This document shows, one piece after another, positions 4,962 through 48,109 of a stretch of DNA of 64,000 nt. Position numbers and translations under genes: made by a program. Position 1 is the stretch's first letter; the number at the start of each line of letters is the position of its first letter. The notes under the pieces were generated by a model. The model saw nothing but the letters and a program-made list of their open reading frames with translations. It was not told where the DNA came from and did not search any database. Source of the stretch: Spiribacter roseus (GTDB lineage Bacteria; Pseudomonadota; Gammaproteobacteria; Nitrococcales; Nitrococcaceae); assembly GCF_002813635.1 (NCBI RefSeq), contig NZ_CP016382.1, positions 1,647,001-1,711,000 on the forward strand. The letters are read 5' to 3'.

Positions 4962-6041
4962 TCAGCCGCCGTTGGCGGAGGCGTTGGCCGGGACCGGGTT
5001 CACGGTGTCGCCGGGGCGGACAAAGCCCTGGCCCACGGTGATCAGGCGCACCCGATCCGGCAGCCCGGTCACCCAGACGCCGTCGCGCTCGGTGCGCACG
5101 ATATCCACCGGGGCAAAGGCCACCTGATCGGCGTCGTCGACGGTCTTCACGCCGACCTCGCCCGACGCCGCCAGCGCCAGCCAGGCCGGACTCAGGAAAT
5201 GCGCGCGCACCGTCCCCAGCGGGATGCGCAGCGTGGCGCTGACGCCCGCCGGCAGACCGTCGGGGTTGGCCGCCTCGACCTCGACCCGAAAGGTACGCGA
5301 GCCCGCCTCGGCGGCGTTGCCGATACGCCGCACCGTGCCGATCAGGGTGTCGCCGGTGGCCAGCTCGATGCGCACCTCGCGCCCGGTTTCGACCTGGCGG
5401 ATGGACTGCTGGGCGACATGGCCGATGGCGACCAGCGGGTCGACATCGATGATCCGCACCACCTGCTCGCCGGCGGCCAGATAGTCGCCGGTGTCCACAC
5501 CACGCGATTCCACCTGACCGGCGATGGGTGCCGTGATGCGGGTGTTGTCGATTTCCTCTTCGATGGCGGCGCGCCGGGCGCGGGCCGATTCCAGCGCCGC
5601 GCGCGCCTCGGTGACGGCGATCTGCGACTGAAAGCCATCGCCCGAGAGCTGCCGGGCAGCCTCGAAATCCGCCTCGGCCTGGTCAACCCGGGCCTGTGCC
5701 TCGGTACGGCGGGCTTCGCGATCACCCATCGCCAGCTCGACGATGGGATCCCCCGGGGCGACGGTGTCACCGGCTTCGACCTGCACCGCCGCCACCTGGC
5801 CACCGGTTTCAGCACGCAACTGGACATCGCGGTCAGCCACGGTATCACCCTGGCTCTCGAGAAAGCGCTCGACGCGCTCGGCCTCAAGCTCGGTGACCGC
5901 CACGTCCATGACCGGCGCCGCCGCCCCGGCATCACGCTCAGCGGACGGCGCATCGGCACGCTCGCCGATCCGGCCGCTCAGCATCCAGGTGCCGACGACC
6001 AGCGCCGCCGCCAGGGCAAGGAGATACGACCGGAGGTTCAT
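4962..6041 (-). CDS. RND efflux periplasmic adaptor (HlyD/AcrA family)
   Basis: This 359-aa membrane fusion protein has an N-terminal hydrophobic anchor ([16 protein letters not shown]), a biotinyl-lipoyl-like domain ([18 protein letters not shown]), a coiled-coil hairpin around residues 115-165 and the second lipoyl half ([20 protein letters not shown]), then a beta-barrel domain. It would bridge the downstream RND permease to an outer-membrane channel. The start overlaps ribA by four bases and the stop is four bases before the pump gene. Confidence 0.92.
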
Positions 6042-6640
6042 GGCTCGAAGTGATGCCCGAACTTGGCCGCCTTGGTCTCGAGATAGGCGTGATTGTGGGG
6101 ATTGCGCCCGGCCAGCAGCGGCAGTCGCTCGATCACCCGCATGCCGGCGGCCTCAAGGCCCTCGACCTTGGCCGGGTTGTTGGTCATCAGCCGCACCGCT
6201 GTCACGCCCAGCGCGCCCAGCATGGAGGCGGCCACGCCATAATCGCGGGCATCGGCAGCAAAGCCCAGCACCTCGTTGGCCTCGACGGTATCCGCGCCGG
6301 CCTCATCCTGAACGCCATAGGCGCGGATCTTGTTGAGCAGGCCGATGCCCCGGCCCTCCTGGCGCAGGTACACCAGCACGCCCTCGCCGGCCTCGCCGAT
6401 CCGCTGCATGGCCGCCTCAAGCTGGGGGCCACAGTCACAGCGCTGGCTGAACAGGGCATCGCCGGTCAGGCACTCCGAGTGTACGCGCACCAGCGGCGCC
6501 TCGGCCGCGGCAGGATCCCCCATCACCAGCGCCACATGCTCGCCGCCGTTATCGGCCTGAAAACCGTGGATGCGGAACGTCCCCCAGCGCGTCGGCAGGC
6601 GGGCCTGACTGGTCTCGCGGGCGCTGGACTCAACGGCCAT
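6038..6640 (-). CDS. ribA: GTP cyclohydrolase II (riboflavin synthesis)
   Basis: The 200-aa protein opens the imidazole ring of GTP to give the pyrimidine precursor of riboflavin. It has the zinc site in the form [10 protein letters not shown] (Cys57) and SQRCDCGPQ (Cys68, Cys70), the RQEGRG motif at 93-98, and the C-terminal MTNNPAK segment that contacts the substrate. It is the stand-alone RibA type, with no DHBP synthase domain fused. It overlaps yqjG upstream by 11 bp and the efflux adaptor downstream by 4 bp. That is an odd context for ribA, which normally sits with other rib genes. Confidence 0.95.
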
Positions 6641-7583
6641 GCGGCGCGTCCAGGTCGATCACCGGACCGGCCGGGATGATGCCGGTGGGATTGATCATCG
6701 GGTGGCTGGTGTAATAGTGGCGCTTGATGTGATCAATGCTCACCGTCCCGGCGATCCCCGGCTGCTGATAGAGATCGCGCAGATAGCCACTGAGGTGCGG
6801 ATAGTCGTCGATGCGGCGGATATTGCACTTGAAGTGCCCGACATACACCGGGTCAAAGCGCACCAGCGTGGTGAACAGCCGCCAGTCGGCCTCGGTGATG
6901 GCGTCGCCGGCCAGGTAGCGCTGATCGCCCAGCCGGGCCTCGAGCTCGTCGAGGGCGGCAAAAAGCTCGCCCACGGCCTGTTCATAGGCCGTCTGGGCGG
7001 TGGCGAAACCCGCCTTGTACACGCCATTGTTGACGGCGTGATAGACCTGCGCGTTAAGGGCGTCGATGGTCTCGGCCCGATCGGCGGGGTAGAGATCCAG
7101 ATCGTCGGCCACCCCCGGCAGATCATTGAAGGCGTGGTTGAAAATACGCACCAGATCCGCCGACTCGTTGTTGACCAGCGTTTCACGCTGCCGGTCCCAG
7201 AGCGCCGGCACCGTGACCCGGCCGGTGTAGTGCGGATCGGCCTTCTGATAGATCTGATGCAGATACTCGAGGCCGAACAGCGCATCGGCGGTGGCCCCGG
7301 GGTAGCTGTCATCGAAATGCCAGCCGCCGCTGCCCATGTAGGGATGCACCACCGAGACCCCGATATGCGGCTCGAGGCCCTTCAACCGGCGGACGATCAG
7401 CGCCCGGTGCGCCCACGGGCAGGCCAGCGACACATACAGGTGATAGCGGCCCGATTCCGGCGGGTGATCGCCCTGCGGATCGATCGGGTTGCGGAACACC
7501 GTCTCGGGCCGCTCGAAGCGCCCGCCGGTGGATTCGGTGTCATACCACTGGTCGTGCCAGACGCCGTCTACGAGCAATCCCAT
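6630..7583 (-). CDS. yqjG: glutathionyl-hydroquinone reductase (YqjG/ECM4 family)
   Basis: The 317-aa protein reduces glutathionyl-hydroquinones to free hydroquinone plus GSSG, using a catalytic cysteine. The Cys-Pro-Trp-Ala-His-Arg motif is present, with Cys55 in [11 protein letters not shown]. The length, the GxxxxVVHPYMG segment and the C-terminal [15 protein letters not shown] block fit the Xi-class GST family. It is 11 bp downstream of wrbA and overlaps ribA. Next to wrbA and a second GST further down the run, it suggests a quinone-handling module. Confidence 0.93.
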
Positions 7584-33829: not shown

Positions 33830-35119
33830 CTATCGCGCGCCGTCGCCCGTGATAATCGTGCGAAACGTCCGGATCACGATCACCAGGTCCAGCCAGATTG
33901 AGCAGTGCTTGGCGTAATAGAGGTCATACTCAAGCTTATCCCGGGTCTCGTCTTCCGAGTCGACATACCCGTGAGTGACCTGAGCCCAGCCAGTGATCCC
34001 CGGTTTGACCAGGTGGCGATAGGCGTAGAAGGGGATTGACGCTTCAAACGACTCAACAAACGCAACCTGTTCCGGACGCGGCCCGATGACGCTCATTTCG
34101 CCTTTGAGGACATTCCAGAACTGGGGCAGCTCATCGATGCGGGTCCGACGAATGAAATGCCCCACCCGGGTGATACGTTCATCTGCCGCCCGGGCAAACC
34201 GTGGGCCGGCCCGATCGGCATCCACCCGCATGCTGCGGAACTTGACCATGGGAAAACGCTTTCCCCCCTGACCGATACGCGACTGCATAAAGAACAAAGG
34301 CCCCGGCGAATCGCACTTGATCGCCACTGCGGCGAGGCAGACAACCGGGAGGGTGAGTGGGCTCGACGCAAGCACGATCAGTAGGTCCATACCCCGTTTG
34401 ATGGCCATGTAGATCGGATGCGGCTTGAAACTGGCGAGATGGCCTGACTGCAGATACTCCAGAGATACTCGCCCCGTCAGCTGCTCACTAACCTGCGGGC
34501 CGTTATGGACGGGTACACCACGGACCTGACAGTCCGCATGAAACCGCTGCCACCGGGGGTCGTCAGTATCCAGATGGCCAACCACACCATCTACCCGGAT
34601 GCCGCTCATTGAAGGCTCATCCAGTCGTACATAGCGGGCGTCAGCGACCGCCTGCACCGATGCCGGCAGAGCGCCCGGCTCAACAGCCAATACCGGCTTG
34701 AAATAGCGATGCCTGAGCGCGCGGCCAATAACAAGCCAAACCGCCGTGACCACGGCGGCAGTCAGCAGAAAGCTTCGCGAGTAATACGTGCGGGCAAATA
34801 GCAGCGCCACCGCAACGCCACCAAAGGCCGCCATGGTGATCGCCACCCCGACAAAGGGATGGAAAATACCAATATCGACTCGCTCCATCCGCCGTGCGGT
34901 CGTGACGGTGATCCCATAGGCCCCAAGACAGCCAGCAATCAGCAACTGGGCGCGCCACATATCATCCTGGCTCGGTATTCCCCACGCGACGCCGCTGCCC
35001 AGCGCAAGCATTAAAACGGCCCCACCGAGCCACCAGATCAGCGATAGCCATGCCGGGCGCCGTGTCATTGGCCCACTCGGCAGAGAGCGCTTACCGGAGC
35101 CTGCTAGTAAGTTCGACAT
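33830..35119 (-). CDS. undecaprenyl-phosphate sugar phosphotransferase (WcaJ/WbaP family)
   Basis: The 429-aa protein has several N-terminal membrane helices, a CoA-binding-like middle domain, and a bacterial sugar transferase domain from about residue 235. That domain includes KRGMDLLIVLASSPLTLPVV, FFMQSRIGQGGKRFPMVKFR, IRRTRIDELPQFWNVLKGEM and GPRPEQV, with KPGITGWAQVTHGY near the end. It primes repeat-unit synthesis by loading a sugar-1-phosphate on the lipid carrier. It is in the minus-strand polysaccharide operon, 33 bp after a GT4 gene. Confidence 0.93.
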   Translation of the reverse strand: MSNLLAGSGKRSLPSGPMTRRPAWLSLIWWLGGAVLMLALGSGVAWGIPSQDDMWRAQLLIAGCLGAYGITVTTARRMERVDIGIFHPFVGVAITMAAFGGVAVALLFARTYYSRSFLLTAAVVTAVWLVIGRALRHRYFKPVLAVEPGALPASVQAVADARYVRLDEPSMSGIRVDGVVGHLDTDDPRWQRFHADCQVRGVPVHNGPQVSEQLTGRVSLEYLQSGHLASFKPHPIYMAIKRGMDLLIVLASSPLTLPVVCLAAVAIKCDSPGPLFFMQSRIGQGGKRFPMVKFRSMRVDADRAGPRFARAADERITRVGHFIRRTRIDELPQFWNVLKGEMSVIGPRPEQVAFVESFEASIPFYAYRHLVKPGITGWAQVTHGYVDSEDETRDKLEYDLYYAKHCSIWLDLVIVIRTFRTIITGDGAR

Positions 35120-35152
35120 CAGGGTAATCCTTGCCAGGTAGGGGTTTTTTGG

Positions 35153-36307
35153 CTAACCAAGGATCTGGCGGATTTTATCCATGTACGCATCAACGACGAG
35201 GCGGACATCATAATATTGCTCCATCAAACGGCGACCCGCCTGCCCCATCTCCGCACGGCGGGCGGGTCCCAGATGGAGCATTTCAAGCATCTTGTCAGCG
35301 AGATCGTCCGAGTCGCGCGGCTCACAGAGCAGCCCGGTCTGCCCGTCAATCAGCGGCTCACGCGTGCCAACGCTATCCGCCGCGATGATCGGTCGGCCCA
35401 TGGCGGCTGCCTCCAGAAGAACGTGGGGGGTGCCTTCGCGATATGACGGTAGGACGACGCAGTCAGCATCGCTGATCAATGGCCTCACGTCGTCTACCTT
35501 GCCGAGCCAACTCATGACGGGTGATGCAGACCAAGCCTGCAGAGCGGATTCAGAAACAGTGCCAGAGTGTCCGCTCGGCACATCACCCGCAATTGAAAAG
35601 ACAATGTCCGAGCTTTGGGCATGAGCTGCCTTTGCCGCCTCCATGAACTCATTAACGCCTTTCTCAGCAACGAGCCGGGCGATCATCACGAAGTGGACGG
35701 GTCTTGCTGGTGGGGCGGTCGACGCCAGCGGCGTGAAGGGGAATGCGTTCAGATCGATGCCTGAGCCGGGCAGCACCGATAGCCGATGAGACTGTGCGAT
35801 ATTGCGATCAAGGACATGGTCACGATCATCCTTGTTCTGCACGAACACATGAGCGGCCCTGCCCTGGGATGATCGCAGTAGCCCGTTCACCAATGCGCCC
35901 AGCCATCCGCCGCGGGTGATGGCTGTCCCCATGCCCGAAAGGTTGTTGATGAAGGGGATTCTGAGACGGCGGGCGACCAGTCCACCGTAGATATCGACTT
36001 TTGGTGTGAAATGCAGCGCGAGGGCGGGATTGATCTGGCGGTAGGCGTGGTACAGGTCCCGCAACGCCGTCAGCTCGGTCACCAGACCCGTGCTCGCGCC
36101 CTGCAGGCGGAGCGGAAAATGACTGAACCCGGCTGAGTGGAGGTCGCCAACGTATGCATCCGATGGCGCTACCGCTACCGGATCGTAGCCGCCCTCACGC
36201 AGCGCGTTAAGCAAAGGCAACCGAAAGCGGACGACGTACTCAGTCGTTGAGTTGGTGATCGCAACCCGAGGGCACAGCCCGGGCTCAGGCGCTACGTAGT
36301 CAGCCAT
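35153..36307 (-). CDS. GT4 glycosyltransferase (PglA/WbpT-like)
   Basis: The 384-aa GT-B protein starts MADYVAPEPGLCPRVAITNS. It has HFTPKVDIYGGLVARRLRIP and NNLSGMGTAITRGG in the acceptor half, and FVMIARLVAEKGVNEFMEA and SYREGTPHVLLEAAAMGRP (E-x7-E) in the donor half. The pattern is that of lipid-linked N-acetylgalactosaminyl or glucosyl transferases such as PglA. The ATG at 36307 was chosen because upstream codons overlap a relic membrane-protein frame. Confidence 0.88.
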   Translation of the reverse strand: MADYVAPEPGLCPRVAITNSTTEYVVRFRLPLLNALREGGYDPVAVAPSDAYVGDLHSAGFSHFPLRLQGASTGLVTELTALRDLYHAYRQINPALALHFTPKVDIYGGLVARRLRIPFINNLSGMGTAITRGGWLGALVNGLLRSSQGRAAHVFVQNKDDRDHVLDRNIAQSHRLSVLPGSGIDLNAFPFTPLASTAPPARPVHFVMIARLVAEKGVNEFMEAAKAAHAQSSDIVFSIAGDVPSGHSGTVSESALQAWSASPVMSWLGKVDDVRPLISDADCVVLPSYREGTPHVLLEAAAMGRPIIAADSVGTREPLIDGQTGLLCEPRDSDDLADKMLEMLHLGPARRAEMGQAGRRLMEQYYDVRLVVDAYMDKIRQILG

Positions 36308-36530
36308 CCACAGTGACCAAACGATGATCGCTAAATGGCTTGTCAGACTTTTTGGCCAGTACGAGCTGGGGCAGGCGTGGCGCGACGAGCATAATGATCG
36401 CACCAACCAGCTTGGCCCGATGTCGCGTGGCTGCCCCGAAGTTACTTGTCCCCACCCCGAAGGCGAAGACAAACGGTAATAGGGCGAACAGAAGTGCCCG
36501 CGCCGACGGATTACGCCAGATCGCAATCAT
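36300..36530 (-). pseudogene. membrane-protein C-terminal fragment
   Basis: The frame encodes IWRNPSARALLFALLPFVFA then FGVGTSNFGAATRHRAKLV, a hydrophobic hairpin with the FAFG-x-N type motif seen near the ends of large polysaccharide-associated membrane proteins. It has about 76 residues, no convincing start, and overlaps the 3' end of the frameshifted polymerase and the 5' end of the GT4 gene by a few bases. It looks like the tail of a deleted gene. Confidence 0.45.
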
Positions 36531-37790
36531 GTGGGACCCGACAGATACAAAACCGAGGCGACAAGTAGTCTGACAGTGGGGGATGGGAATGCAGACCTTC
36601 ATCCTGGGACGGTCCTTCGGCCCCCGACCCCGTAGTGGCAGAGCCCAGCTTTTCCGCAAACATGAAAACGCACGCAAAAAGAAAAAGTGCGAAGATAGTC
36701 TCAAACCCAAGCACTCTAACTAGATAACTATCTTCAAAAGCCTCTCTAACAAAAAAGAAGGACAAGATTGCCGAGAACAACACCAGCCCAGTTTTTTTCG
36801 CCCAGATCGGATTGTGGGTGTCCCGTGCCCCATGGCGATAGGCTAACTGCAGGCTCAACACCATCACAACGAGGGGCACTACAATGACCGCAAAATAACC
36901 CAAAAGTCCGACTTCGGACAGCAAGCGCAAGTGCAAGTTGTGCGGCGATGAGGCAATATGCTCTGTCCTGCTTCTGGCCTCCGTTAGGACATCTGTAGCC
37001 CCGTACCAACCAAAAGCACCGACCACCGGAGAACTGACAAAACCCTCCCACATGACTTTCCAACCCGCTAACCTACCTTGGAGATTTTTATCACTGAGCG
37101 GTTCACCAACTTCAATTCTAGAATCGAGGTAATCTACTAGTTCACTCTCGGGTTTCATAGCACCGGAGCCGATCAAAGAACCAGCCACCAATGCTCCTAA
37201 TAGAAAAAACCCGGAAATGAAAATAGTTTTTTTCTTTGGCCGAAGAAGGTTCGACCAAGAAAAACTCAAAAAATAATGAGAAAAATAGAAAACGAATACC
37301 GCCGCCCAAGAACCTCGCGAGAAGGACAAGAATAAGACCAAAAGAGCCAAGACTTCAAGCATCTTCGCAGACCATGCTTGCTCTTCGTGCTGCACCCTTG
37401 ATAAAACCGCCCATACCACAAACACAAACGCATAAAGCCCAACTGTATTCGCATTCACGCCACCGGTTAGGCGCCAGCTTCCGCTACCACCATGGCACGC
37501 GAAGACGAATATGCCGGGCCATATGCTCCTAAGGCTAGCAAAGGCAACAGAAGTGCCAAGACTATAAAGTAAAAACCAAACCCAGCCTCAGTTCGAAACC
37601 AGCTCAACCGCCTGCCGGTGGCCACCGTTGCTGGCACGGCTACCACAGCCACCAAGAAAACAGACACTGGGATTACGCTTGCTTCGGGCAGCCGGACCAC
37701 CCAGCTTCCCACCACCGAACAAACCACAACAAGGCCCACAATGACTTGGTTCCTCGGGACATCGGCGATATGGATATTTGGCTGGTCCAT
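36511..37790 (-). pseudogene. O-antigen polymerase/ligase family gene split by a frameshift
   Basis: A solid start (ATG at 37790 after AAGGAGTCTT) gives MDQPNIHIADVPRNQ and three membrane helices, but the frame stops at 37467. The second half continues in another frame with WRLTGGVNANTVGLYAF, the conserved Wzy motif, then further helices, a periplasmic loop (GRLAGWKVMWEGFVSSPVVG, HNLHLRLLSEVGLLGY) and a stop at 36511. A single-base indel between about 37467 and 37490 separates two halves of one protein of about 425 aa. It is either a natural mutation or an assembly error. Confidence 0.8.
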
Positions 37791-37859
37791 AAGACTCCTT
37801 ATGAGAAGGAAATAGCCCTTACCATGTCGTCAAACAGCGGACGGATGGCAAAGAAAGAC

Positions 37860-38978
37860 TCAGGCTCCAAGCACTCCGACGAGCGTTTTACGGTACCATT
37901 CGGCAATCGAATCAAGCCCGTAATACTTAACCATCCTTCTCCGTGCGCACTGCCCGTAACGCCCCAACTCCTCGTGCCCCAGCTGCACAATCTCTGTCAC
38001 TCGCCGAGACAACGTGTCGGTTGCTCCACTTCTACATACGAATCCCGTATTACCAACGACTCTCCAGGCATCTCCCACATTCGTAACCAGTGCTGGTACA
38101 CCACAAGCCATCGCCTCACCCACGACATTCGGAAACCCCTCGCCCCACAGCGAGGGCATCACCAGGAGGTCGAGGGCAGGATAGAGTGATTCGGGAGCAT
38201 CCGTAGGCGCGAGAAGCGTGACGTTAGATTCCAGAGCTGCTTCCCGCACGGCCGTCGCCACCGGCCCGTCGGGCTCTGCCACCCCGGTGCCTGCCATTAC
38301 GCAATGCACGAGCAGCCCCTCATCCACCAGCATCCGCAACGCCTTCAGCCATCCAAGATGGTTCTTCATCGGGTGGGCACGCCCAACGACGCCCAGCAGA
38401 AACCGCTCGGGAGTCACCCCGAGCCCGGCTCGGCGGGCATTTCGGGCATCCGGGTCGGGCTTGAAGCGCGCAAGGTCAAAGCCATTGGGCAGTACCACCC
38501 TCTTGGCGGAGGGATACCCAAAGCGTTCATGCTGTTCGGCAGCGGTTTCGCTGTTGTAGATAACGCGAGCGGGCGATCGGGCCAACCAAGCACCGGCCCG
38601 GATTACCCAGCGAGTGCTCACCTTCTCCCGGCGCATGTCATGCACCGAATGGCGCACATTCCAGACGACCGGCCCACGGTGCCCCAGCCGCTGTGTGAGA
38701 GACGCCGCCAGATTGCCGTGATACATCCATCCCATCACTACATCGGGCCGGAGTTCTCGTATGGCCCCACGTAGCGCCGGTATCCAGGTGGGCGAAACGC
38801 TTCGACGCACCCCCCCCGTGTAGATGGGAGCACCCGCCTTCCGTATCTCGTCCGCCATCACCCCCGGCTGCTTGAGCGAGAAAACGGCGGACTCCTCCGG
38901 ATAGACCGACACCAGGTTCGCCAACTGCCGTTCCGCGCCGCCCTGGCTCAGGCCCGCAATTACATGGAGGACTTTCAT
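37860..38978 (-). CDS. GT4 glycosyltransferase
   Basis: The 372-aa GT-B enzyme starts MKVLHVIAGLSQGGAERQLA, typical of capsular and O-antigen GT4 proteins. The acceptor half has VVWNVRHSVHDMRREK. The donor half has LGVVGRAHPMKNHLGWLKAL and PSLWGEGFPNVVGEAMACGV, with the E-x7-E pair. Donor sugar cannot be read from the sequence. It follows another GT4 gene by 18 bp in the polysaccharide operon and lies 69 bp upstream of the frameshifted polymerase. Confidence 0.92.
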   Translation of the reverse strand: MKVLHVIAGLSQGGAERQLANLVSVYPEESAVFSLKQPGVMADEIRKAGAPIYTGGVRRSVSPTWIPALRGAIRELRPDVVMGWMYHGNLAASLTQRLGHRGPVVWNVRHSVHDMRREKVSTRWVIRAGAWLARSPARVIYNSETAAEQHERFGYPSAKRVVLPNGFDLARFKPDPDARNARRAGLGVTPERFLLGVVGRAHPMKNHLGWLKALRMLVDEGLLVHCVMAGTGVAEPDGPVATAVREAALESNVTLLAPTDAPESLYPALDLLVMPSLWGEGFPNVVGEAMACGVPALVTNVGDAWRVVGNTGFVCRSGATDTLSRRVTEIVQLGHEELGRYGQCARRRMVKYYGLDSIAEWYRKTLVGVLGA

Positions 38979-38996
38979 CTGCTCACTGATCTTCCG

Positions 38997-40142
38997 TCAC
39001 GATCTCGGTCTCGATGGACTCACTTCGAGACCGAAGGCTTCTTCCAAATATTGCCGAGCGATCGCCGGGGCCGCGAAATCGCGCGCCCGTTCCTGCCGAG
39101 CTTCGCGCGTACCTCGCGGCGAATGCAGTGCTTCAGTAATGGCTTCGGCCAGCGCATCCGGCTCATCCACCGGTACCAAATGCCCCAACGCTCCATCGCG
39201 AAGCAACGCCCTAGGGGCGCCCGGACAATCCGTGGAGACCACCGGCACTCCGGTAGCCAGAGCCTCGACAAGCACATTCCCGAACCCCTCCCACCGAGAA
39301 GAGAGCACAAAGAGTGACGAGTGCTCCAACACGTGCATAGGGTCAATTACAAACCCCGGAAAATGTACTCGCTCGCCAATACCAAGCTCCCTCGCTTGCT
39401 CCTGTAGCTTTCCACGGAGAGGGCCTTCTCCAAGGATTACCAAGTCGGCCTCTTGGCTATCCAGCTTCGAAAAGGCCTCCAACAGGCAATCAAACCCCTT
39501 TAGTTCCGCCAACCTCCCGATGGCGCAGATAAGCTTGCGGTCGGATCTAAATCCACCAAAAGGGGACGAGAAATCGTTACTCCGGTCTGCTTCGGACCCT
39601 AACACTGGGTTGGCGATAACAAGGGTGGGGTAGTCCGAAACCATTCCATGTACAGCCATGGATTGCGCTGTTGCCTCCGAATTCGCCACCACGCAATCCG
39701 AACGAGGATAAATGGCCCGCATTGTCTTTAGAACCAGCGCTTGCCTTATCCGCTGAAACCGCGAACCTTCGGGCGCGCGCACCACAGTGGCCTCGGAGAG
39801 CACCAGCCGGCAAGGGCGCCCAGCCATCATCCACGCAATGGACCCAGCGATATTCACATAACTCATGCGGGCCATAAGAACGGCGGGGCGCTCCGAACGC
39901 AAATAGTTAGCAAGGGCCGGGATGGCTGCCAAAGTGCGTTTCTTATCTAGGCTTCGTATGTCAACTTCAGGGCGCAGGTCATCCAAAAACTCGCCCTCCG
40001 CGCGCACCAGCACCAAGTGGACCGGGCGTTCCGACAAATCGACCAAACCGTTCGCTAGGTTAACAATTACCCGCTGCGCGCCACCGCCATTCAACGCGGG
40101 GATGAAAAGAGCTATTGGGCGAGTACTGTTGTCAACCGTCAC
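38997..40142 (-). CDS. GT4 glycosyltransferase
   Basis: The 381-aa protein starts at a GTG (VTVDNSTRPIALFIPALNGG) one base after the stop of the upstream GT gene, in the way genes of one operon often do. It has GGGAQRVIVNLANGL in the acceptor half, and ICAIGRLAELKGFDCLLEAF, VILGEGPLRGKL and SSRWEGFGNVLVEALATGVP in the donor half. Codons upstream in this frame belong to the preceding gene's antisense and are not coding. Sugar specificity is unknown. Confidence 0.9.
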   Translation of the reverse strand: MTVDNSTRPIALFIPALNGGGAQRVIVNLANGLVDLSERPVHLVLVRAEGEFLDDLRPEVDIRSLDKKRTLAAIPALANYLRSERPAVLMARMSYVNIAGSIAWMMAGRPCRLVLSEATVVRAPEGSRFQRIRQALVLKTMRAIYPRSDCVVANSEATAQSMAVHGMVSDYPTLVIANPVLGSEADRSNDFSSPFGGFRSDRKLICAIGRLAELKGFDCLLEAFSKLDSQEADLVILGEGPLRGKLQEQARELGIGERVHFPGFVIDPMHVLEHSSLFVLSSRWEGFGNVLVEALATGVPVVSTDCPGAPRALLRDGALGHLVPVDEPDALAEAITEALHSPRGTREARQERARDFAAPAIARQYLEEAFGLEVSPSRPRS

Positions 40143-40143
40143 G

Positions 40144-41358
40144 TTACGAATCGATCTTATTCGCTTCAGACCGGAACCCATAAAAATCAGAAACATCAGC
40201 CATAATATCGCTGACACTTTGATCGAGAGCGTTATCAAGCGCAAATCTGTAGCCATTCTCTGCCAAGTAAGCCCTGAGTGTCGACTTCTCGGCAACATCA
40301 CGGATCCCGCTCGCAAGTTCACCGGGAGAACCGGGATCAAAAAGCAGGCCATTAAAGCCATGATTGATGACGCTTGGAATTCCTCCAGCTCGCGCTGCAA
40401 TAACTGGAACCGAACAGGCCATTGCCTCCAAAAGCACTTTACCTTGGCGCTCTTCCTTAGATGGAAGCACGAGCATGTCTGCTTCCAAAAACCGGGTTTC
40501 TCTGAGTTCGGCATTAGGCACAGCACCCCGGAAGGTCACGCATTCGGTCCTGCGTTCCGCCACGAGCTTCTCCAATGTATCTCGCTGGGGTCCGTGGCCA
40601 ACAATCTGCACCGAAAGCTGATAATCCTCTTTCTCCAGAAGCGCTGCAGCCTCGATCAGGCACTCGATGTTCTTCTCCGGGCTGAGCCGCCCCGCAAACA
40701 CTACTCGAAGGATCCTGCCAGGCTCGGGAGGCCGGTAACTCGGGATTTCGGAAGAGGTGACTGTCGTTTTAATCCACTGTCGCCAATGGGGCTGAGGCCC
40801 GAGAAAATCGTCACCTGTAACAAAGGCGGGCCGACTGCCACCCAAGTTACGAAGCAAAGCATAAATAGTCTTTTCAACAACCCACGCCTTTGCGCGCCCA
40901 CGGTAACCACCAGCCGAACGAGCCTTCCCGGCTCGATCCGTGTCGATACTCAAGAAAACCGGCTTTCTACGCACTCGCGCCAGCGCCAGGCCGAGAATGC
41001 CCATATTGTTGGGAGCCATCGCGTAAACAAGGTCGGCCTTCCCTATCTCCCGCCACAAATTGCGGCTGATAGAGAAGAATTTCCGAATGAAGCCAAGATG
41101 ACCGCCATATGTTGGCAAAAGGCTAAGGGAGACATTCCCCGAATAGGTCGCAACTTCCGATGTTTCCGGCTCCGCCCCAACAGGGACACAAAGCACCATT
41201 TTTTTGACGTGCCTGGAAAATTCTGACGTTATTTTTGCAAACCCACCCCGAACTGCTATATGTCCATCTGATAGGCTGTCGTGACGCTTGTGGGAGATCA
41301 CAACAAGCCGTTCTATTCGTGAGAGCGCGACTATCGGCGGTTGGGAATGCGCGCTCAT
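40144..41358 (-). CDS. GT4 glycosyltransferase
   Basis: The 404-aa enzyme begins MSAHSQPPIVALSRIERLVV, with GGAAGG-like GGAAGG sequence nine bases upstream supporting the ATG at 41358 over a TTG four codons earlier. Its donor half has VVFAGRLSPEKNIECLIEAA, VGHGPQRDTLEKL and LPSKEERQGKVLLEAMACSV. The first half differs from the other GT4 proteins of the locus, so it probably adds a different residue. Base composition is lower in GC than the flanking core genome. Confidence 0.88.
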   Translation of the reverse strand: MSAHSQPPIVALSRIERLVVISHKRHDSLSDGHIAVRGGFAKITSEFSRHVKKMVLCVPVGAEPETSEVATYSGNVSLSLLPTYGGHLGFIRKFFSISRNLWREIGKADLVYAMAPNNMGILGLALARVRRKPVFLSIDTDRAGKARSAGGYRGRAKAWVVEKTIYALLRNLGGSRPAFVTGDDFLGPQPHWRQWIKTTVTSSEIPSYRPPEPGRILRVVFAGRLSPEKNIECLIEAAALLEKEDYQLSVQIVGHGPQRDTLEKLVAERRTECVTFRGAVPNAELRETRFLEADMLVLPSKEERQGKVLLEAMACSVPVIAARAGGIPSVINHGFNGLLFDPGSPGELASGIRDVAEKSTLRAYLAENGYRFALDNALDQSVSDIMADVSDFYGFRSEANKIDS

Positions 41359-41575
41359 GGCGCCTTCCAACTAGGTACAGGTATCCTGATGGCGAGGCAA
41401 CCACTCCCATGAGGGAATAAAGCATAGCTCCTCGGAGGTACATGATCACTCAGGTCGCAACAGATATCGAGACCAAACAAAGAGAATATCTTCTTAATAA
41501 GGCGCTTCATTATTTCCTCGGAATGTCATCGCGGTAGCGATTTCACTTGATTTAGGTCTTTTTGGAAAATTTAAT

Positions 41576-42319
41576 TTAATAAGAATATTTGTAGTCAAAA
41601 ACCTCAGCCTCAAAAGCGAACTTTTTTTCGGCGACAGATCTCACTTTGTCAGTGTAATATTGTTCTAAGTCGTAGCGTGATCCGGAGCCTTTGAATGTAG
41701 GAATGCCTTTCGACACCTCACCTTCCGGGATTCCAACGATGGCTGCCACTTTCTCTAGACCTGACTCAAGATTTTCATAAGGGATCACGTGATCGACACA
41801 AATTGATTTGTTTGTAGGAAACTTGTAAAAGGGCCTATTAGAAAATCCGTGCGACTTATTCTTTACCCTATTCCACGGGTTTGCGGAAAGAGCTGACAAA
41901 GCGAAGCTTTCAAAAGGAATATCAAGCTGGAACCAGCCCGTTCGCCACCGCCAAAAACTAATAAGGCGATCATATGGATTTCGCTCAATGGTCATTTTTG
42001 TGTAATTATTCCATATATCTGGCCTCACAGCCTCCTTAACTTCTTTAGCCGTCATGTGTTGATGGAAACCGAGCGTTGCAGTTATGCGCTTCTGCTGCAA
42101 CGCCCGTATTACGTATCGCCGAGCGCCGGAAATGCCGACTGAATGACGCGCCGTCTCCGTATTTTGAGTGCTGAGTGTTGTATTGTCAGTAACATCGTGG
42201 CTAATTGCTAGTATGTCGTCAGGTCCTGCATATTTGGCCAGCAATGCCTCGACACTCGTACCTGCAGTTTTTCGAGTCTTGAGAAAGATATATTTATGCC
42301 GGTGGGATACTATCGTCAT
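41576..42319 (-). CDS. sulfotransferase family 2 protein
   Basis: The 247-aa protein begins MTIVSHRHKYIFLKTRKTAG; FLKTRKTAGTS (12-22) is the PAPS 5'-phosphosulfate loop and IERNPYDRLISFWRWR is the 3'-phosphate site, as in carbohydrate sulfotransferases. It would transfer sulfate from PAPS to a glycan. The ATG at 42319 has AAAGGG upstream and overlaps the ABC gene end by 26 bp. The gene and the 205 bp after it are strikingly AT-rich compared with the core genome, which suggests recent transfer. Position in the operon suggests a sulfated exopolysaccharide. Confidence 0.82.
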   Translation of the reverse strand: MTIVSHRHKYIFLKTRKTAGTSVEALLAKYAGPDDILAISHDVTDNTTLSTQNTETARHSVGISGARRYVIRALQQKRITATLGFHQHMTAKEVKEAVRPDIWNNYTKMTIERNPYDRLISFWRWRTGWFQLDIPFESFALSALSANPWNRVKNKSHGFSNRPFYKFPTNKSICVDHVIPYENLESGLEKVAAIVGIPEGEVSKGIPTFKGSGSRYDLEQYYTDKVRSVAEKKFAFEAEVFDYKYSY

Positions 42320-44075
42320 GTTCAACCCTTTCTATATTTTTCACGCTCCCGCGCGCCAACGTTACTATCCGGTTACTCTCCGAGACAGTGGAAAGTCGGT
42401 GTGCAATAACAACGATGGTCTTGAGATCTGCTAGCGCCTTCACCGCGTCCATGACCGCGGCTTCGGTTTCTTTGTCGAGAGCGCTTGTCGCTTCGTCAAG
42501 CACAAGGACAGGTGGATCGTGATACAAGGCCCGCGCAATACCGATCCGCTGACGCTGCCCCCCAGAAAGGCGCACACCACGCTCCCCAACTACAGTGCTG
42601 TAGCCCTGCGGCATGTCGTTGACGATGAACTCGTGCACCTGGGCCATGCGGACACAGCGTTCCACCCGGTCGTGGTCGATCTGCTCGGGCGGCACCCCCA
42701 GGGCGATGTTTTCGGCCACTGTGGAGTCGGTCAAGAAGATATCCTGCGGCACATATCCCAACGCTTGCTGCCAGGCGCGCAGGTTATGATCGGTGATTGG
42801 CTGGCCGTCGACCACAATGGCGCCTTCGCTTGGGCGCAACAGGCCCAGGAGCACGTCCACCAGGGTGGTCTTGCCGGCACCCGAGGTGCCGATGATGCCC
42901 ACGGAGGTGCCCACGGAGATCTCCAGATCGATCCCCTGCAGGGCCGGGCGCTCAGCATTCGGGTAGGTGTAGTGGATGTTCTGCAGGGCGATTTTCTGCT
43001 TAGGCTCCAGCGGCTGCGGGGCGCGCTTGTATAGTTCGGCCAGGGCGGCGCGCTGGTGCAGATCGTTGTAGGCGTTGTCCACAGCGCCGGCACCGAAGCG
43101 CAGTTTGGCCATGCCGGTATAGATGCGCTGGGCGGCGGGCAGCATGCGGTAACCGACGAAGGCGTAGAGCCCGAGGATGGGCAGGATGTCGCCCAAGGCG
43201 TTGCTGTCGGTGCCACCTTTGCTGGCCAGCAGCACCAGCGTAAGCGCGATCACGCCGCCGAAACCGACTGCCTCGATGACGAACTTGGGGATCTCACCGA
43301 GCGTTTGGTTGGTGGCCTGATGGCGGGCTTGGCGGCTGGAGGGACCTTCGAACCGGTAGAGGTAGGCGTGTTCGCGGCCGAGGAGCTTGATGTCCTTGAT
43401 ACCGCCGAGGGCCTCACTGGCAGCGGTAAAGCGCTCCTGGTTGGCTCGGGCGCGGTCGTAACCCACCCGGCCGAGGACACCGCGCACCGCGCCGAATATG
43501 AGCGTATACATGCCGCCGATTACTATGGCCACGCCCAGCGCCAGCCAAGGATCCACGACGATGAGCAGGATGACCAAAGCGAGGATGACCACACTGTAGG
43601 CGACCATCTGCATGCCTGGGCGGAAAACCTGCTGCACGAGCTGGTCCACTTCCGAGAGGATGTTCTTGGCCATGTCGCCGCTGTGGCGGTCGAGAAAGAA
43701 GGCGTAGGGCTGGCGCAGGTAGGTCTCCAGCAGCCGCTTGCCGATGCTGTGGCGGCGCATCTCAATGAAGCGGTTCATTGCGTAGTGCGTAAGCGAGCGG
43801 AAGAAGGCGGAGAACAGGATAAGCCCGAAGGCCGCCATTCCCAGCGCTAAGATGAAGGCGTCCACTGAGGTAAAGCCCATGACCTCGTAGGCGGTACTGA
43901 GCACCGGGTTGGCCTTCACCACTTCGGGGTTACCCAGCACACTGAGAAACGGCATGACAGAAGCCACGCCGGCCGTTTCCAGTATGGCCATGACAACGAC
44001 CATACCAAGGACAAGGCCGCCGCGGCGTTTCTCTTTCGGGCTGAGCAGGGCCAGGGCTTTGCGCCAAGTATCCAT
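42294..44075 (-). CDS. ABC transporter with fused permease, PglK/MsbA-like lipid-glycan flippase
   Basis: A 593-aa half-transporter: six N-terminal helices (residues about 15-320), then the ATPase with Walker A IGTSGAGKTT, signature VRLSGGQRQRIGIARAL and Walker B VLVLDEATSALD. The opening (ALALLSPKEKRRGGLVLGMV) and the ETAGVASVMPFLSVL segment resemble PglK, which flips undecaprenyl-linked oligosaccharides. The ATG at 44075 overlaps the stop of the decayed epimerase (TGATGG), fixing the start. No wzx-type flippase is seen, so this is the likely exporter. Confidence 0.93.
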   Translation of the reverse strand: MDTWRKALALLSPKEKRRGGLVLGMVVVMAILETAGVASVMPFLSVLGNPEVVKANPVLSTAYEVMGFTSVDAFILALGMAAFGLILFSAFFRSLTHYAMNRFIEMRRHSIGKRLLETYLRQPYAFFLDRHSGDMAKNILSEVDQLVQQVFRPGMQMVAYSVVILALVILLIVVDPWLALGVAIVIGGMYTLIFGAVRGVLGRVGYDRARANQERFTAASEALGGIKDIKLLGREHAYLYRFEGPSSRQARHQATNQTLGEIPKFVIEAVGFGGVIALTLVLLASKGGTDSNALGDILPILGLYAFVGYRMLPAAQRIYTGMAKLRFGAGAVDNAYNDLHQRAALAELYKRAPQPLEPKQKIALQNIHYTYPNAERPALQGIDLEISVGTSVGIIGTSGAGKTTLVDVLLGLLRPSEGAIVVDGQPITDHNLRAWQQALGYVPQDIFLTDSTVAENIALGVPPEQIDHDRVERCVRMAQVHEFIVNDMPQGYSTVVGERGVRLSGGQRQRIGIARALYHDPPVLVLDEATSALDKETEAAVMDAVKALADLKTIVVIAHRLSTVSESNRIVTLARGSVKNIERVEHDDSIPPA

Positions 44076-44830
44076 CAAGTCGAGATTCCGTAATATTGCA
44101 AGTACCAATCCAAGAAGTTCGCCACGGTGTTCTCCATCGGGGTGGTGGGCTCGTAGCTCATGTCGGCCTTGAGGTCGGCGACATCGGCGTAGGTGTCCGG
44201 GACGTCCGCCAGCCTCAGCAGCAGCGGGTTCTTTTGCTACCGCCCCTCCCGCCTTCCCAGCTTAGCCTAGAGGACATAGATGTATCTCATAGTCATTGTT
44301 GGTTAGTGGGCGCTCAGGTTGTACATCCAATAGGGCTCGGCGCTGGTTCCCGAGTTCGGTACGGCGCTGTACGAGCCGCGGTTGTACTCCACCGGGTCGT
44401 CCATGCTCTGCGGCGTTCTATAGAAGATGTCATCCTTATAGGTGAAGTCCTACCGATGGTTGCCGCGGCTGAACAGGTCGGTCGGCTCCCCGGCAGGGTG
44501 TTTCTGGCTGAACAGGAACACCGCCATGTCCGGCCAGCCCCGGGGGTTGTAGACGGTAGAAGAACCGCAGCCTGGTGGTGGGTAGCCGATAGAGATAGGG
44601 ATAGATGTGAGCTACGAGCACATTGGCAGTCTTGCTGACGGCGTAGATGTTCACCCTTAGCGGACTGAAAAGAACATTTCGGTGTTGGCGCGGTAGAAAC
44701 GGGATAAGGTAGGCGGTCCAGTTACCCGCCCTGATGTAGTGGCAGCTCTAGGATTTTGGGTGAAGCCGACAAGACTGGCGCCACGTAGGCGTTAATGGTT
44801 TTTATAGAGCAACGGATCATTAAAAGCACT
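44075..44830 (-). pseudogene. decayed copy of UDP-glucuronate 4-epimerase
   Basis: Pieces of one epimerase lie in order in changing frames: SLVGFTQN near 44760, ANTEMFFSVR, NIYAVSKTANVLVAHIYPYL, WPDMAVFLFSQKHPAGEPTD, DFTYKDDIF, and finally DVPDTYADVADLKADMSYEP ending in TGA at 44077-44075. Each piece matches a segment of the intact enzyme encoded at 48110-49132 (for example [18 protein letters not shown]). There are at least three frameshifts and several stops. The coding end is well preserved where the ABC gene start overlaps it. Confidence 0.85.
44236..44244 (-). promoter_or_regulatory. second ops-like core, GGCGGTAGC
   Basis: The minus strand reads GGCGGTAGCAAAAG inside the decayed epimerase, 160 bp upstream of the ABC flippase start. 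The nine-base core equals that of the real ops site, but the following bases differ from the GTG of the canonical element. It could be a chance match. Confidence 0.35.
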
Positions 44831-44911
44831 GGCGTTGTCTGTGATGCGAAACTGTTAGCCGTGTTTTAGCACGGGGCTTCAGGCCCTTCATAATCTCGTA
44901 AAAACTCATGA

Positions 44912-45484
44912 TTAACTGATATTGAATTTCCTCGAAACGGCGGGATATCTCCGCTTCAGATACTTCGAACTCATCCCCGCAAATCGCTCTAAGTCCTTTC
45001 GCGAGAAAGCTCCTGCCGCTAGGTCGGCCGGCTCTTTATTCTGGACGCGAACCCGCCGGACATACGGCTCGATCTGCTTCCACTGTTCGACAAATGTAGG
45101 CCCCCACATCTCAATCAGATGGCGCTTGTTAATCATTCCAGTAACACCGAGATAGCCAACCCGCTGAAGACCAACGCTGATCTCGTGAGCTTTTTGGCAA
45201 GCTTCCTCGTCCTGATCCCAGTCAATCACGGCATGGCGCTGCTTTTCTTTCAATGTCCGAATCGCGGGCTTAAGGGTGTTCATCTGCTCCAATACGAGAT
45301 GCATCATGTCGGCATCGCGGCTCTTCCGGGTTTCCCGGATATTGCGGATACCATGCCAGACGGTGGCCAGCAGGAAGATATTAATGAAGACCATCAGGAT
45401 ATCCGCAACTCCGGACACGCCGGACCAATCGATCGGGTTGAGACTGAGCTCATAACCAAAACTATTATTCAGCCAGTCTCGCAT
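44912..45484 (-). CDS. membrane-anchored hypothetical protein, possibly DUF4760-like
   Basis: The 190-aa protein starts MRDWLNNSFGYELSLNPIDW and has one membrane helix around residues 27-45 (ADILMVFINIFLLATVWHGI), followed by a soluble helical domain with ADMMHLVLEQMNTLKPAIRT and FVEQWKQIEPYVRRVR. The layout is like DUF4760 proteins. It sits between the UDP-sugar dehydrogenase and the decayed epimerase in the polysaccharide operon. Function is unknown. Two small stem-loops (CCGTG/CACGG at 44859-44874 and GGGC/GCCC at 44874-44886) follow its stop. Confidence 0.7.
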   Translation of the reverse strand: MRDWLNNSFGYELSLNPIDWSGVSGVADILMVFINIFLLATVWHGIRNIRETRKSRDADMMHLVLEQMNTLKPAIRTLKEKQRHAVIDWDQDEEACQKAHEISVGLQRVGYLGVTGMINKRHLIEMWGPTFVEQWKQIEPYVRRVRVQNKEPADLAAGAFSRKDLERFAGMSSKYLKRRYPAVSRKFNIS

Positions 45485-45577
45485 GTTCAGTTGTACTCCA
45501 GTGATCCGGCGAGGATTCGGGATTCGCTGTCCGAACAAAGGAAGTTTTCCATCAACAGATACCGTGTCTGCGCTAGA

Positions 45578-46870
<1,293 letters not shown>

Positions 46871-46874
46871 GGGA

Positions 46875-47228
46875 TTAACTCCACTCGGGATCTGCAGCCA
46901 CGCGCCGGCGCAACTCCGCGATCTCAGCCTGCAGCGCCTCGTACTCCGCCTCCTTGCGGCGCAGGAACCGCCAGGTCATGCGGGTTTTCTCCTCGATGCC
47001 TTCGGGCGTGAGCAGATAGGCGTAGCGCATCTTGCGCGGGTTGTGCTGGAAGTTCTGGAGCTTGACCAGACCCTTGTCCATCAGCGCGTGCAGGCAATAG
47101 TTCGTCCTGCCCAGGCTTACACCCAGCTCGCGGGCCAGGGCGCGCTGGCTCAGGTTGGGATCGGACTCAAGCGCCTGAAGCGCCCGCAGGGGCAACGCAT
47201 CGTCGAGCGAAGTGGTCTTGTTAGTCAC
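46875..47228 (-). CDS. MarR-family EPS-associated transcriptional regulator
   Basis: The 117-aa winged-helix protein (LRALQALESDPNLSQRALAR, ELGVSLGRTNYCLHALMDKG) is followed by a coiled-coil tail (RRKEAEYEALQAEIAELRRR), the pattern of the MarR-type regulators found at the head of exopolysaccharide loci. It is the first gene after the ops element. The GTG start has no good Shine-Dalgarno sequence, in line with RfaH-dependent translation. Confidence 0.9.
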   Translation of the reverse strand: MTNKTTSLDDALPLRALQALESDPNLSQRALARELGVSLGRTNYCLHALMDKGLVKLQNFQHNPRKMRYAYLLTPEGIEEKTRMTWRFLRRKEAEYEALQAEIAELRRRVAADPEWS

Positions 47229-47269
47229 TGTTTTTTAATTGCTTTTCTGAGAAAGAGGAGGTAGTCAGG

Positions 47270-47281
47270 CACGCTACCGCC
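47270..47281 (-). promoter_or_regulatory. ops element (RfaH loading site)
   Basis: The minus strand reads GGCGGTAGCGTG, the full 12-base ops sequence known from E. coli RfaH-controlled operons. It lies 42 bp upstream of the MarR-type gene and about 190 bp downstream of the rfaH stop, in the transcribed leader. RNA polymerase pauses at ops and exposes the non-template strand to RfaH. No RfaH site elsewhere in the window is this complete. Confidence 0.88.
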
Positions 47282-47473
47282 AAGTCGCGCTCATCGATTT
47301 TTGAGGCGACAAACCAGAGTGTGAACGCATTCATAGGCTCGGATCAAAGGGCTACCCCGCCAATGCTAGAAGGCAACGCGCGTAGGCGGAGTCCACCTCG
47401 GCGCCGCACTTCTACGCCGGGAGCGTCTGATCCAGGAAACGCCTGGCCCTGGAGCTCCCCTACCGATGGGATG

Positions 47474-47971
47474 CTAACCCCGCGCCAGCGACGCCTCGGG
47501 GAAGACCATGGTCTGCGGCTGTTTCATGACCTCAAGCAGCAGCATGACCCGATCCTCACCACGCCGGCCATAGAACAGCCCCTGGTGACCCGCGAACGCC
47601 CCTTCCTGGATCACCAGCCGATCACCTTTCTGATAGTCGGCCTGGGGTGTCGGGATACAGCCCACTTCATCGACATTGCGGCGCAGACAGTCGATGACGG
47701 GTTCCGGGACCGGCGGGACGTGATCGCCCCAGCGGACCATGCCAGCGACGCCCCGGGTCGAGCGGATGGGCGCCCAGTTCTGGCTGACGTCATCAAGGTG
47801 GATGAACAGATAGCGCGGGAACAGCGACTCAATGAGGGTCGTCATCGCCCCCCGGCGCTTGCGCCGAACACGGTGCTTGGGCCGGAATACCTCGAACGCC
47901 TGATGGTCGAGGTGCAGTTCGGCGCGCTCATCCTCGCGCGGTTTACAGTAGATGGCATACCAGCGTTTCAC
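47474..47971 (-). CDS. rfaH: transcription antitermination factor RfaH (NusG paralogue)
   Basis: The 165-aa protein begins MKRWYAIYCKPREDERAELH (GTG start at 47971, with GGAGGGGGATC upstream) and has the NusG-type N-terminal domain with PRYLFIHLDD and RSTRGVAGMVRWGDHV, a linker, and a C-terminal KOW-type end (KGDRLVIQEGAFAGHQGLFY). Length is close to E. coli RfaH (162 aa). The longer frame upstream lacks protein character. Its gene lies just before the ops-led polysaccharide operon, so it probably controls that operon. Confidence 0.92.
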   Translation of the reverse strand: MKRWYAIYCKPREDERAELHLDHQAFEVFRPKHRVRRKRRGAMTTLIESLFPRYLFIHLDDVSQNWAPIRSTRGVAGMVRWGDHVPPVPEPVIDCLRRNVDEVGCIPTPQADYQKGDRLVIQEGAFAGHQGLFYGRRGEDRVMLLLEVMKQPQTMVFPEASLARG

Positions 47972-48109
47972 GCGTGATCCCCCTCCGCGTTCAATCCGTG
48001 AACAGGTTGAGACACGAATATGCCCACCGACGGGCGGTATAACAACCCCCACCCTCGGCCCGCCAGCCCTCACTGGCGACTGCGACCGTCACCGGGTATC
48101 GTTTCGGCC

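Follow-up and report, generated by a model that had tools for sequence, protein, structure and literature searches.

In E. coli, the antitermination factor RfaH has target mRNAs that lack a Shine-Dalgarno (SD) sequence. RfaH loads at the ops element, excludes NusG and Rho, and recruits ribosomes (PMC7593976), and a stem-loop has been reported for the JUMPstart leader (PMC2864571). In RfaH clusters CL2-CL8, rfaH is found with envelope-biogenesis neighbours, accompanied in CL4 by an HTH regulator (Wang et al., 2020; PMC7593976), and that source already describes RfaH and ops themselves as well as polysaccharide genes and an HTH regulator in the vicinity of certain rfaH clusters. RfaHs adjacent to long operons have been proposed to tend toward monomorphic proteins (PMC13015549). 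Other specialised NusG paralogs include UpxY (Bacteroides), TaA and LoaP, some of which are encoded in their own operons. Our literature searches did not find RfaH, MarR, exopolysaccharide (EPS) and ops together, a functional study of MarR_EPS (TIGR04176), or anything joining Spiribacter with RfaH.

Here we describe a locus in a 64,000-nucleotide stretch of the genome of the halophilic bacterium Spiribacter roseus (hereafter the window), in which rfaH, ops and a MarR_EPS gene stand in that order before a polysaccharide block. A palindrome, GTTCA-N5-TGAAC, appears to link rfaH with MarR_EPS; this shared site is new here and was missed in the preliminary description of the locus. We favour, with a probability of about 0.72, the reading that an RfaH/ops antitermination unit is wired to MarR_EPS to form a two-gate module that would act on both initiation and elongation.

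The rfaH, ops and MarR_EPS locus

The window rfaH (47474-47971, minus strand) encodes 165 amino acids from a GTG start with a strong SD (duplex energy with the 16S tail, -10.5 kcal/mol). Its product passes the NCBIfam RfaH models TIGR01955 (158.8 bits, cut-off 144.5) and NF006534 (124.4, cut-off 124), falls below the cut-offs for UpxY (NF033644, 66.8 against 100 bits) and LoaP (NF033641, 46.9 against 125 bits), and has E. coli RfaH as its best PDB sequence match. A possible rfaH promoter, TTGTTA-17-CATATT (48017-48045, minus strand), was read by eye with 8 of 12 consensus bases, the scan threshold being 9. The ops element GGCGGTAGCGTG (47270-47281, minus strand), an exact 12-base match, lies 192 bp beyond the rfaH stop codon and 41 nt ahead of the MarR_EPS start codon. 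The JUMPstart RNA covariance model (RF01707) scored 17.2 bits here, below its gathering threshold of 35 bits and mainly on the ops letters, and the stem-loop reported for JUMPstart (PMC2864571) was not found above the Rfam cut-off at the window leader.

The MarR_EPS gene (46875-47228, minus strand) encodes a winged-helix regulator of 117 amino acids that scores 146.2 bits against TIGR04176 (cut-off 88) and is also matched by Pfam HTH_24 and MarR_2. The duplex energy at its GTG start is +0.2 kcal/mol, that is, no SD, compared with -5.9 for the next gene and -10.5 for rfaH. These results bear out the preliminary description where it placed rfaH, a 12-base ops and this regulator in order on the minus strand, took the first product to be a regulator, and found no SD at its GTG start. 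That description had also stated that a strong promoter and SD just upstream of marR would make RfaH unnecessary; an SD is absent, and the sole promoter candidate is a weak promoter-like pair, TTCACA-17-AAAAAT (47297-47325, minus strand; 9 of 12 bases), which lies upstream of ops and overlaps a decayed copy of the palindrome. Promoter-like pairs numbered one in a 1.5-kb scan (shuffle mean 0.2) and four in a wider 19.5-kb scan, fewer than the 7.3 expected by chance. A terminator scan of 28-47.5 kb gave 16 candidates against 16.8 expected, and at this chance level we make no terminator claim.

Across loci, an SD was absent from 11 of the 14 MarR_EPS genes that have an ops no more than 300 bp upstream and from 12 of 29 others (Fisher p=0.027; rank test p=0.06), a comparison in which start codons were set by rule, L115 was dropped (no start) and L037 of the same family added, and class and named loci possibly overlap in organism. 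It is suggestive only of SD-less MarR_EPS starts being commoner where ops is near.

Behind marR lies a co-directional polysaccharide block (33830-46870, minus strand). The eight genes behind marR that were tested against curated models, besides RfaH and MarR_EPS, encode a nucleotide-sugar dehydrogenase, a DUF4760-like protein, an ABC transporter, a sulfotransferase, three glycosyltransferases and an O-antigen ligase-type protein; two further genes resemble, by eye, a glycosyltransferase and a sugar transferase. An operon extending over 28-47 kb, as first described, is overstated, because plus-strand frames at 31.0-33.8 kb interrupt it: on the minus strand, marR heads a block that extends from 47.2 down to 33.8 kb, and the galE- and rfbB-like genes at 28.4-30.5 kb, also on the minus strand, lie beyond the interruption. 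Within the block, a decayed, frame-broken stretch (44108-44660, minus strand) resembles, by eye, the sugar-nucleotide epimerase at about 48.1-49.1 kb, which is divergent from rfaH.

A palindrome before MarR_EPS and rfaH

The window genome has one perfect GTTCA-N5-TGAAC, GTTCACGGATTGAAC (47989-48003), which stands 17 bp upstream of the rfaH start and is a candidate MarR_EPS operator. Before ops-marR, a decayed version, GTTCA-CACTC-TGGTT (47312-47326), retains 7 of 10 bases, which is chance level; the aligned site scores 10/10 in G014, G012 and G016 and 9/10 in G009. With this site decayed, the window operon may have escaped regulation by MarR_EPS, its first product.

We first noticed the palindrome by eye when reading leaders that contain ops; in loci distant from one another it lies upstream of that element. 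The loci viewed in this way (including L132 of G196) are no independent test of it. Our class sample comprised 232 genomes, 33 with MarR_EPS above cut-off and 53 with RfaH at E <= 1e-20 (45 above cut-off). A palindrome of at least 9/10 bases was present within 500 bp upstream of MarR_EPS at 30 of the 33 loci, as against 0/33 for the downstream region and about 0.35/33 in shuffles; by genome, this amounts to 17/17 without RfaH and 13/16 with it. The three misses are the window (7 bases; its genome is G000), G147 (7), where palindrome sites surround the rfaH-like gene instead, and G095 (8), counted as a miss with a perfect palindrome 532 bp upstream. In a later phylum-wide set, a perfect palindrome was found at 10 of 13 stand-alone MarR_EPS genes and at none of three long MarR_EPS-like proteins (612-614 aa), which were kept as misses; the controls for the whole set gave 0/16 downstream and 11/800 in shuffles. 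Those 13 phylum loci, the 16 other class genomes without RfaH and seven loci of a longer relative were unviewed before scoring, and the palindrome was present in 10/13, 16/16 and 7/7 of them, respectively.

This longer winged-helix relative (mostly about 200 aa) accounts for 25 sub-cut-off TIGR04176 matches in the class sample. Its N-terminal part matches MarR_EPS below cut-off (61.6-67.1 bits in the four tested); no Pfam family matched its C-terminal part, for which a nucleotide-sugar sensor would be a guess. A perfect palindrome was present in the fetched stretch at all 25 loci (L167-L184 and L223-L229), 18 of which had been picked for nearby rfaH or ops and seven added later. They reveal a second layout, rfaH, longer winged-helix protein, ops: rfaH lies in the stretch at 16 of 18 fetched loci, and an exact ops follows downstream in 14 of those 16. 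All 37 class genomes with RfaH and without MarR_EPS were examined, and 15 of them have the longer relative beside rfaH; G117 and G223 have it on another contig, with no palindrome near rfaH. In the remaining 20 genomes, which include G183 (a broken MarR_EPS fragment) and G124 (a longer relative about 6 kb away), the stretch fetched around rfaH contains neither protein in intact form, and the perfect palindrome was found in none of these stretches; neither winged-helix protein occurs elsewhere in these genomes in the class count, G124 excepted. Near-perfect 9/10 sites occur in three of the first 15 of these stretches and twice in G135, one of the other five.

With respect to rfaH itself, a perfect palindrome stands just before 7 of 10 rfaH genes in the window's family (G000, G008, G009, G010, G014, G018 and G021) and is lacking before those of G001, G002 and G012. 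The half-sites stand out in the seven otherwise diverged leaders, which were chosen for a perfect site, so that their invariance is partly selection and 7/10 is the fair count. Perfect palindromes number 51 in the 23 family genomes (reversed control, 17); of these 51, 20 stand no more than about 175 bp ahead of a MarR_EPS or rfaH gene, and most lie elsewhere. Sixteen class genomes have both genes, and in 9 of them rfaH is found behind the palindrome, either directly (G000, G095 and, with a 9/10 site, G147) or second in a marR-rfaH pair (G108, G129, G143, G232, G235 and G242). The palindrome reaches rfaH through the longer relative in G137 and lies between rfaH and ops-marR in G160; no palindrome was found near rfaH in the remaining five (G001, G099, G112, G188 and G215). 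The earlier suggestion of a self-contained locus is plausible and is strengthened by a palindrome that rfaH and MarR_EPS share.

Two side observations concern genomes in which one partner was not detected. G010 has the palindrome before rfaH, with no MarR_EPS detected and no convincing ops leader. G003, a genome without RfaH, has three consecutive MarR_EPS copies (L162, G003:C1:3475558-3478700), one with an internal stop and two preceded by a perfect palindrome, with an exact ops behind the last copy; this array is possibly a relic.

Co-occurrence suggests MarR_EPS as the putative binder of the palindrome, and repression is the favoured mode of action, given the position of the site by the rfaH start and, in 13 of the 17 class genomes without RfaH, by the marR start. 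A palindrome next to a start codon, overlapping or following any promoter, would occupy a repressor's place. Were MarR_EPS an activator instead, it would form a positive loop with RfaH, a bistable on-switch in place of a self-limiting circuit, and the palindromes found upstream of promoter-like boxes in some loci (L129 and L131, by eye) would suit this arrangement. However, in those 13 genomes the first base of the palindrome lies 20-47 bases ahead of the MarR_EPS coding match and in the window its end is 17 bp from the rfaH start, so that it would overlap or follow any promoter, which makes activation rather unlikely.

It is also conceivable, and in our judgement unlikely, that the window has ordinary RfaH/ops antitermination, with another regulator or a nucleoid protein binding the palindrome and MarR_EPS merely the first gene of the operon. 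The literature searched contains no functional MarR_EPS study, the G010 palindrome stands before rfaH where MarR_EPS was undetected, and most of the 51 family palindromes lie away from MarR_EPS and rfaH starts. Against this, the palindrome accompanies MarR_EPS in every class genome without RfaH (17/17) and the longer relative at every locus (25/25), and the perfect site is absent from all 20 fetched RfaH stretches that have no intact copy of either protein.

Association of ops with RfaH

Bare copy number is no evidence for ops. The element is the only copy with fewer than two mismatches in the window and the 12-mer occurs exactly once in the single-contig 1.93-Mb genome, but the reversed control likewise occurs once, and copies with two mismatches are at chance level in the window (13 against 12.4 expected); we therefore dropped this line of evidence. 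The significance of the match is best placed in its position and conservation, together with strand bias and dependence on RfaH. The string GGCGGTAGCGTGCC is invariant across five aligned genus leaders, chosen for having ops, whose flanks have diverged. A looser motif, GGCGGTAGCNT, is in most family genomes no more frequent than its reversed control and was used by position only. A GGCGGTAGCGT match in G010 was not counted as a leader, as it sits within an 825-aa open frame.

We sampled 75 RfaH loci from named genomes and kept 74 (L122, with a split and weak rfaH match, was dropped), a set that leans to relatives of the window RfaH, from which the search patterns were derived. Allowing one mismatch, 21 of these loci have an ops no further than 300 bp from rfaH, and 24 have one no further than 3 kb; all 26 such elements within 3 kb are on the same strand as rfaH and none on the opposite strand, as against 2 and 5, respectively, for the reversed motif. 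In raw counts uncorrected for phylogeny, ops (same strand, at most one mismatch) lies within 1.5 kb of MarR_EPS in 14 of the 16 class genomes that have RfaH and in 1 of the 17 that lack it (Fisher 2.1e-6), three of the 16 (G147, G160 and G242) being below the RfaH cut-off. The two exceptions are G108, whose contig breaks off directly behind rfaH, and G147, with a weak RfaH match. In the window's family, ops is present at MarR_EPS loci in 8/8 genomes with RfaH and 2/5 without: G003, where an exact ops follows a MarR_EPS gene at a distance of 371 bp, and G016 (87% complete), with ops-MarR_EPS and no RfaH detected. In the genomes compared, ops thus tracks RfaH, and the palindrome the winged-helix protein.

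The window RfaH has the ops-contact residues K10, H20, T72 and R73 and the autoinhibition residues E48, I93, F133 (corresponding to F130) and R141 (corresponding to R138), H20, T72 and R138 being ones that we take to have these roles. In the ops-adjacent RfaH group the contact residues are kept to differing degrees (T72 22/22, K10 20/22, R73 17/22, H20 1/22), and autoinhibition residues are found at E48 in 22/22, R141 in 21/22, F133 in 19/22 and as I/V at position 93 in 21/22. The other residues, K10 and R73 for ops contact and E48, I93 and F130 for autoinhibition, are named in PMC7593976. An AlphaFold model (52 sequences) has a confident N-terminal domain and a mixed C-terminal domain (helix 138-150, strands 118-120 and 130-132, block pLDDT 65-76), for which reason we claim neither a metamorphic nor a monomorphic protein. 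In a Foldseek search with this model, 5ond, the autoinhibited RfaH (PMC7593976), ranked first and second by E-value and the fully recruited RfaH 8phk third, the highest TM being to 8pfg; the ranking favours neither state.

These features bear on whether the window RfaH could be monomorphic and act in cis on the neighbouring operon with no need of ops (cf. PMC13015549), which would accord with the adjacency of rfaH to its target and with the mixed alpha/beta prediction for the C-terminal domain. However, the window rfaH has an intact ops beside it, MarR_EPS loci of the class sample seldom have ops where RfaH is missing (1/17), and the autoinhibition residues are largely kept in the ops-adjacent group; we regard this explanation as quite improbable. 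The retention of autoinhibition residues gives no simple fit with the monomorphic proposal of PMC13015549, as far as that source states it, and does not thereby test the fold itself. That the ops 12-mer is a chance match beside which rfaH drifted is scarcely credible: the single genomic copy is equalled by its reversed control, but orthologous elements stand in five genus leaders, and the 26-to-0 strand bias and the dependence on RfaH presence would go unexplained.

The three parts are found in four orders, in distant families. The window order, rfaH-ops-marR, recurs in G021, G160 and L075, in L071 and L112 with a one-mismatch ops, and in G095 with 1.5 kb from rfaH to ops; the others are marR-rfaH-ops (G143, G232, G242, L052, L055 and L085), ops-marR-rfaH (G129 and G235) and ops-rfaH-marR (L072, L081 and L103). 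In some relatives the parts are separated, with 2-4 kb between rfaH and ops-marR in G008, G009 and G014 and about 97 kb in G012. The antitermination reading of the preliminary description is plausible, and is supported as regards an RfaH, a canonical ops, a polysaccharide operon and an SD-poor first gene; the layout, which it considered special for having rfaH beside its own ops, is common in the sampled loci (the 21 of 74 within 300 bp). What the DNA itself shows is the parts, their order, their conservation and two associations, one between ops and RfaH and one between the palindrome and MarR_EPS.

Several loci carry further features. Between rfaH and ops-marR in L156 and L157, from the relatives G009 and G014, lies a tyrosine-recombinase-like gene (by eye; 6025-7365 and 6049-7377, respectively, both plus strand) accompanied by PIN-like or ATPase-like frames, and the spot adjacent to rfaH is a possible insertion site. 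The four orders and this gene in two relatives weakly suggest that the cassette is transferable, as had been proposed. In L161 (G006:C127), from an assembly of about 420 contigs with 6% contamination, several rfaH fragments share one contig, two with ops within about 75 bp behind, and their rfaH-ops ends look as if they were recombination joints. G021 has two ops-MarR_EPS leaders (G021:C1:1392098-1392685 and 1870616-1871806) with an unusually long distance from ops to marR (about 245 bp), both holding a large inverted repeat (by eye).

A two-gate reading and its relation to known systems

In the two-gate reading, the first gate would be set at initiation, where MarR_EPS would bind GTTCA-N5-TGAAC at the promoter of the operon that it heads and, in the lineage of the window, before rfaH as well. 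The second would be set at elongation: RNA polymerase in the EPS leader would pause at ops, RfaH would bind the exposed ops strand and, once loaded, would keep NusG and Rho off and aid ribosome loading on an mRNA whose first gene is without an SD. RfaH loading, NusG exclusion and ribosome recruitment are transferred here by analogy with E. coli. Because the first product is MarR_EPS, the output would feed back on rfaH.

A further-reaching version would see RfaH, ops and MarR_EPS as a recurrent, reorderable cassette controlling surface-polysaccharide operons, whose elongation factor and winged-helix repressor regulate each other to give a self-limiting pulse of capsule or EPS expression. The repressor mRNA is SD-poor and headed by ops, so that within this cassette reading it would be translated efficiently only with RfaH loaded; the loading needed for efficient repressor synthesis would be followed by the repressor shutting rfaH off via the palindrome. 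We offer this version tentatively, as possible and doubtful.

In either form, the palindrome provides a specific candidate operator for MarR_EPS, a regulator family for which we found no functional study, and such an operator would join initiation and elongation control in one circuit.

Compared with described systems, the window locus is closest to E. coli RfaH with its ops/JUMPstart leaders, sharing an RfaH family protein, an identical 12-base ops, a polysaccharide operon and an SD-poor first gene. It differs in that E. coli rfaH is unlinked to its targets, whereas the window rfaH lies 192 bp from its ops, and in having a MarR_EPS regulator as first gene and a leader below the Rfam cut-off of the JUMPstart model. 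With CL2-CL8 it shares envelope-biogenesis neighbours, and with CL4 an HTH regulator. The main text of PMC7593976 names no MarR, and the passages compared place no ops beside the rfaH of these clusters and give no operator. As with UpxY, TaA and LoaP, the antiterminator is encoded with a long target operon; unlike UpxY and LoaP, it passes the RfaH model, lies below the cut-offs of both of theirs and is accompanied by a canonical ops. Finally, the window MarR_EPS adjoins EPS genes as other TIGR04176 regulators do, and is set apart from the known members by the operator proposed here and by its link to RfaH and ops.
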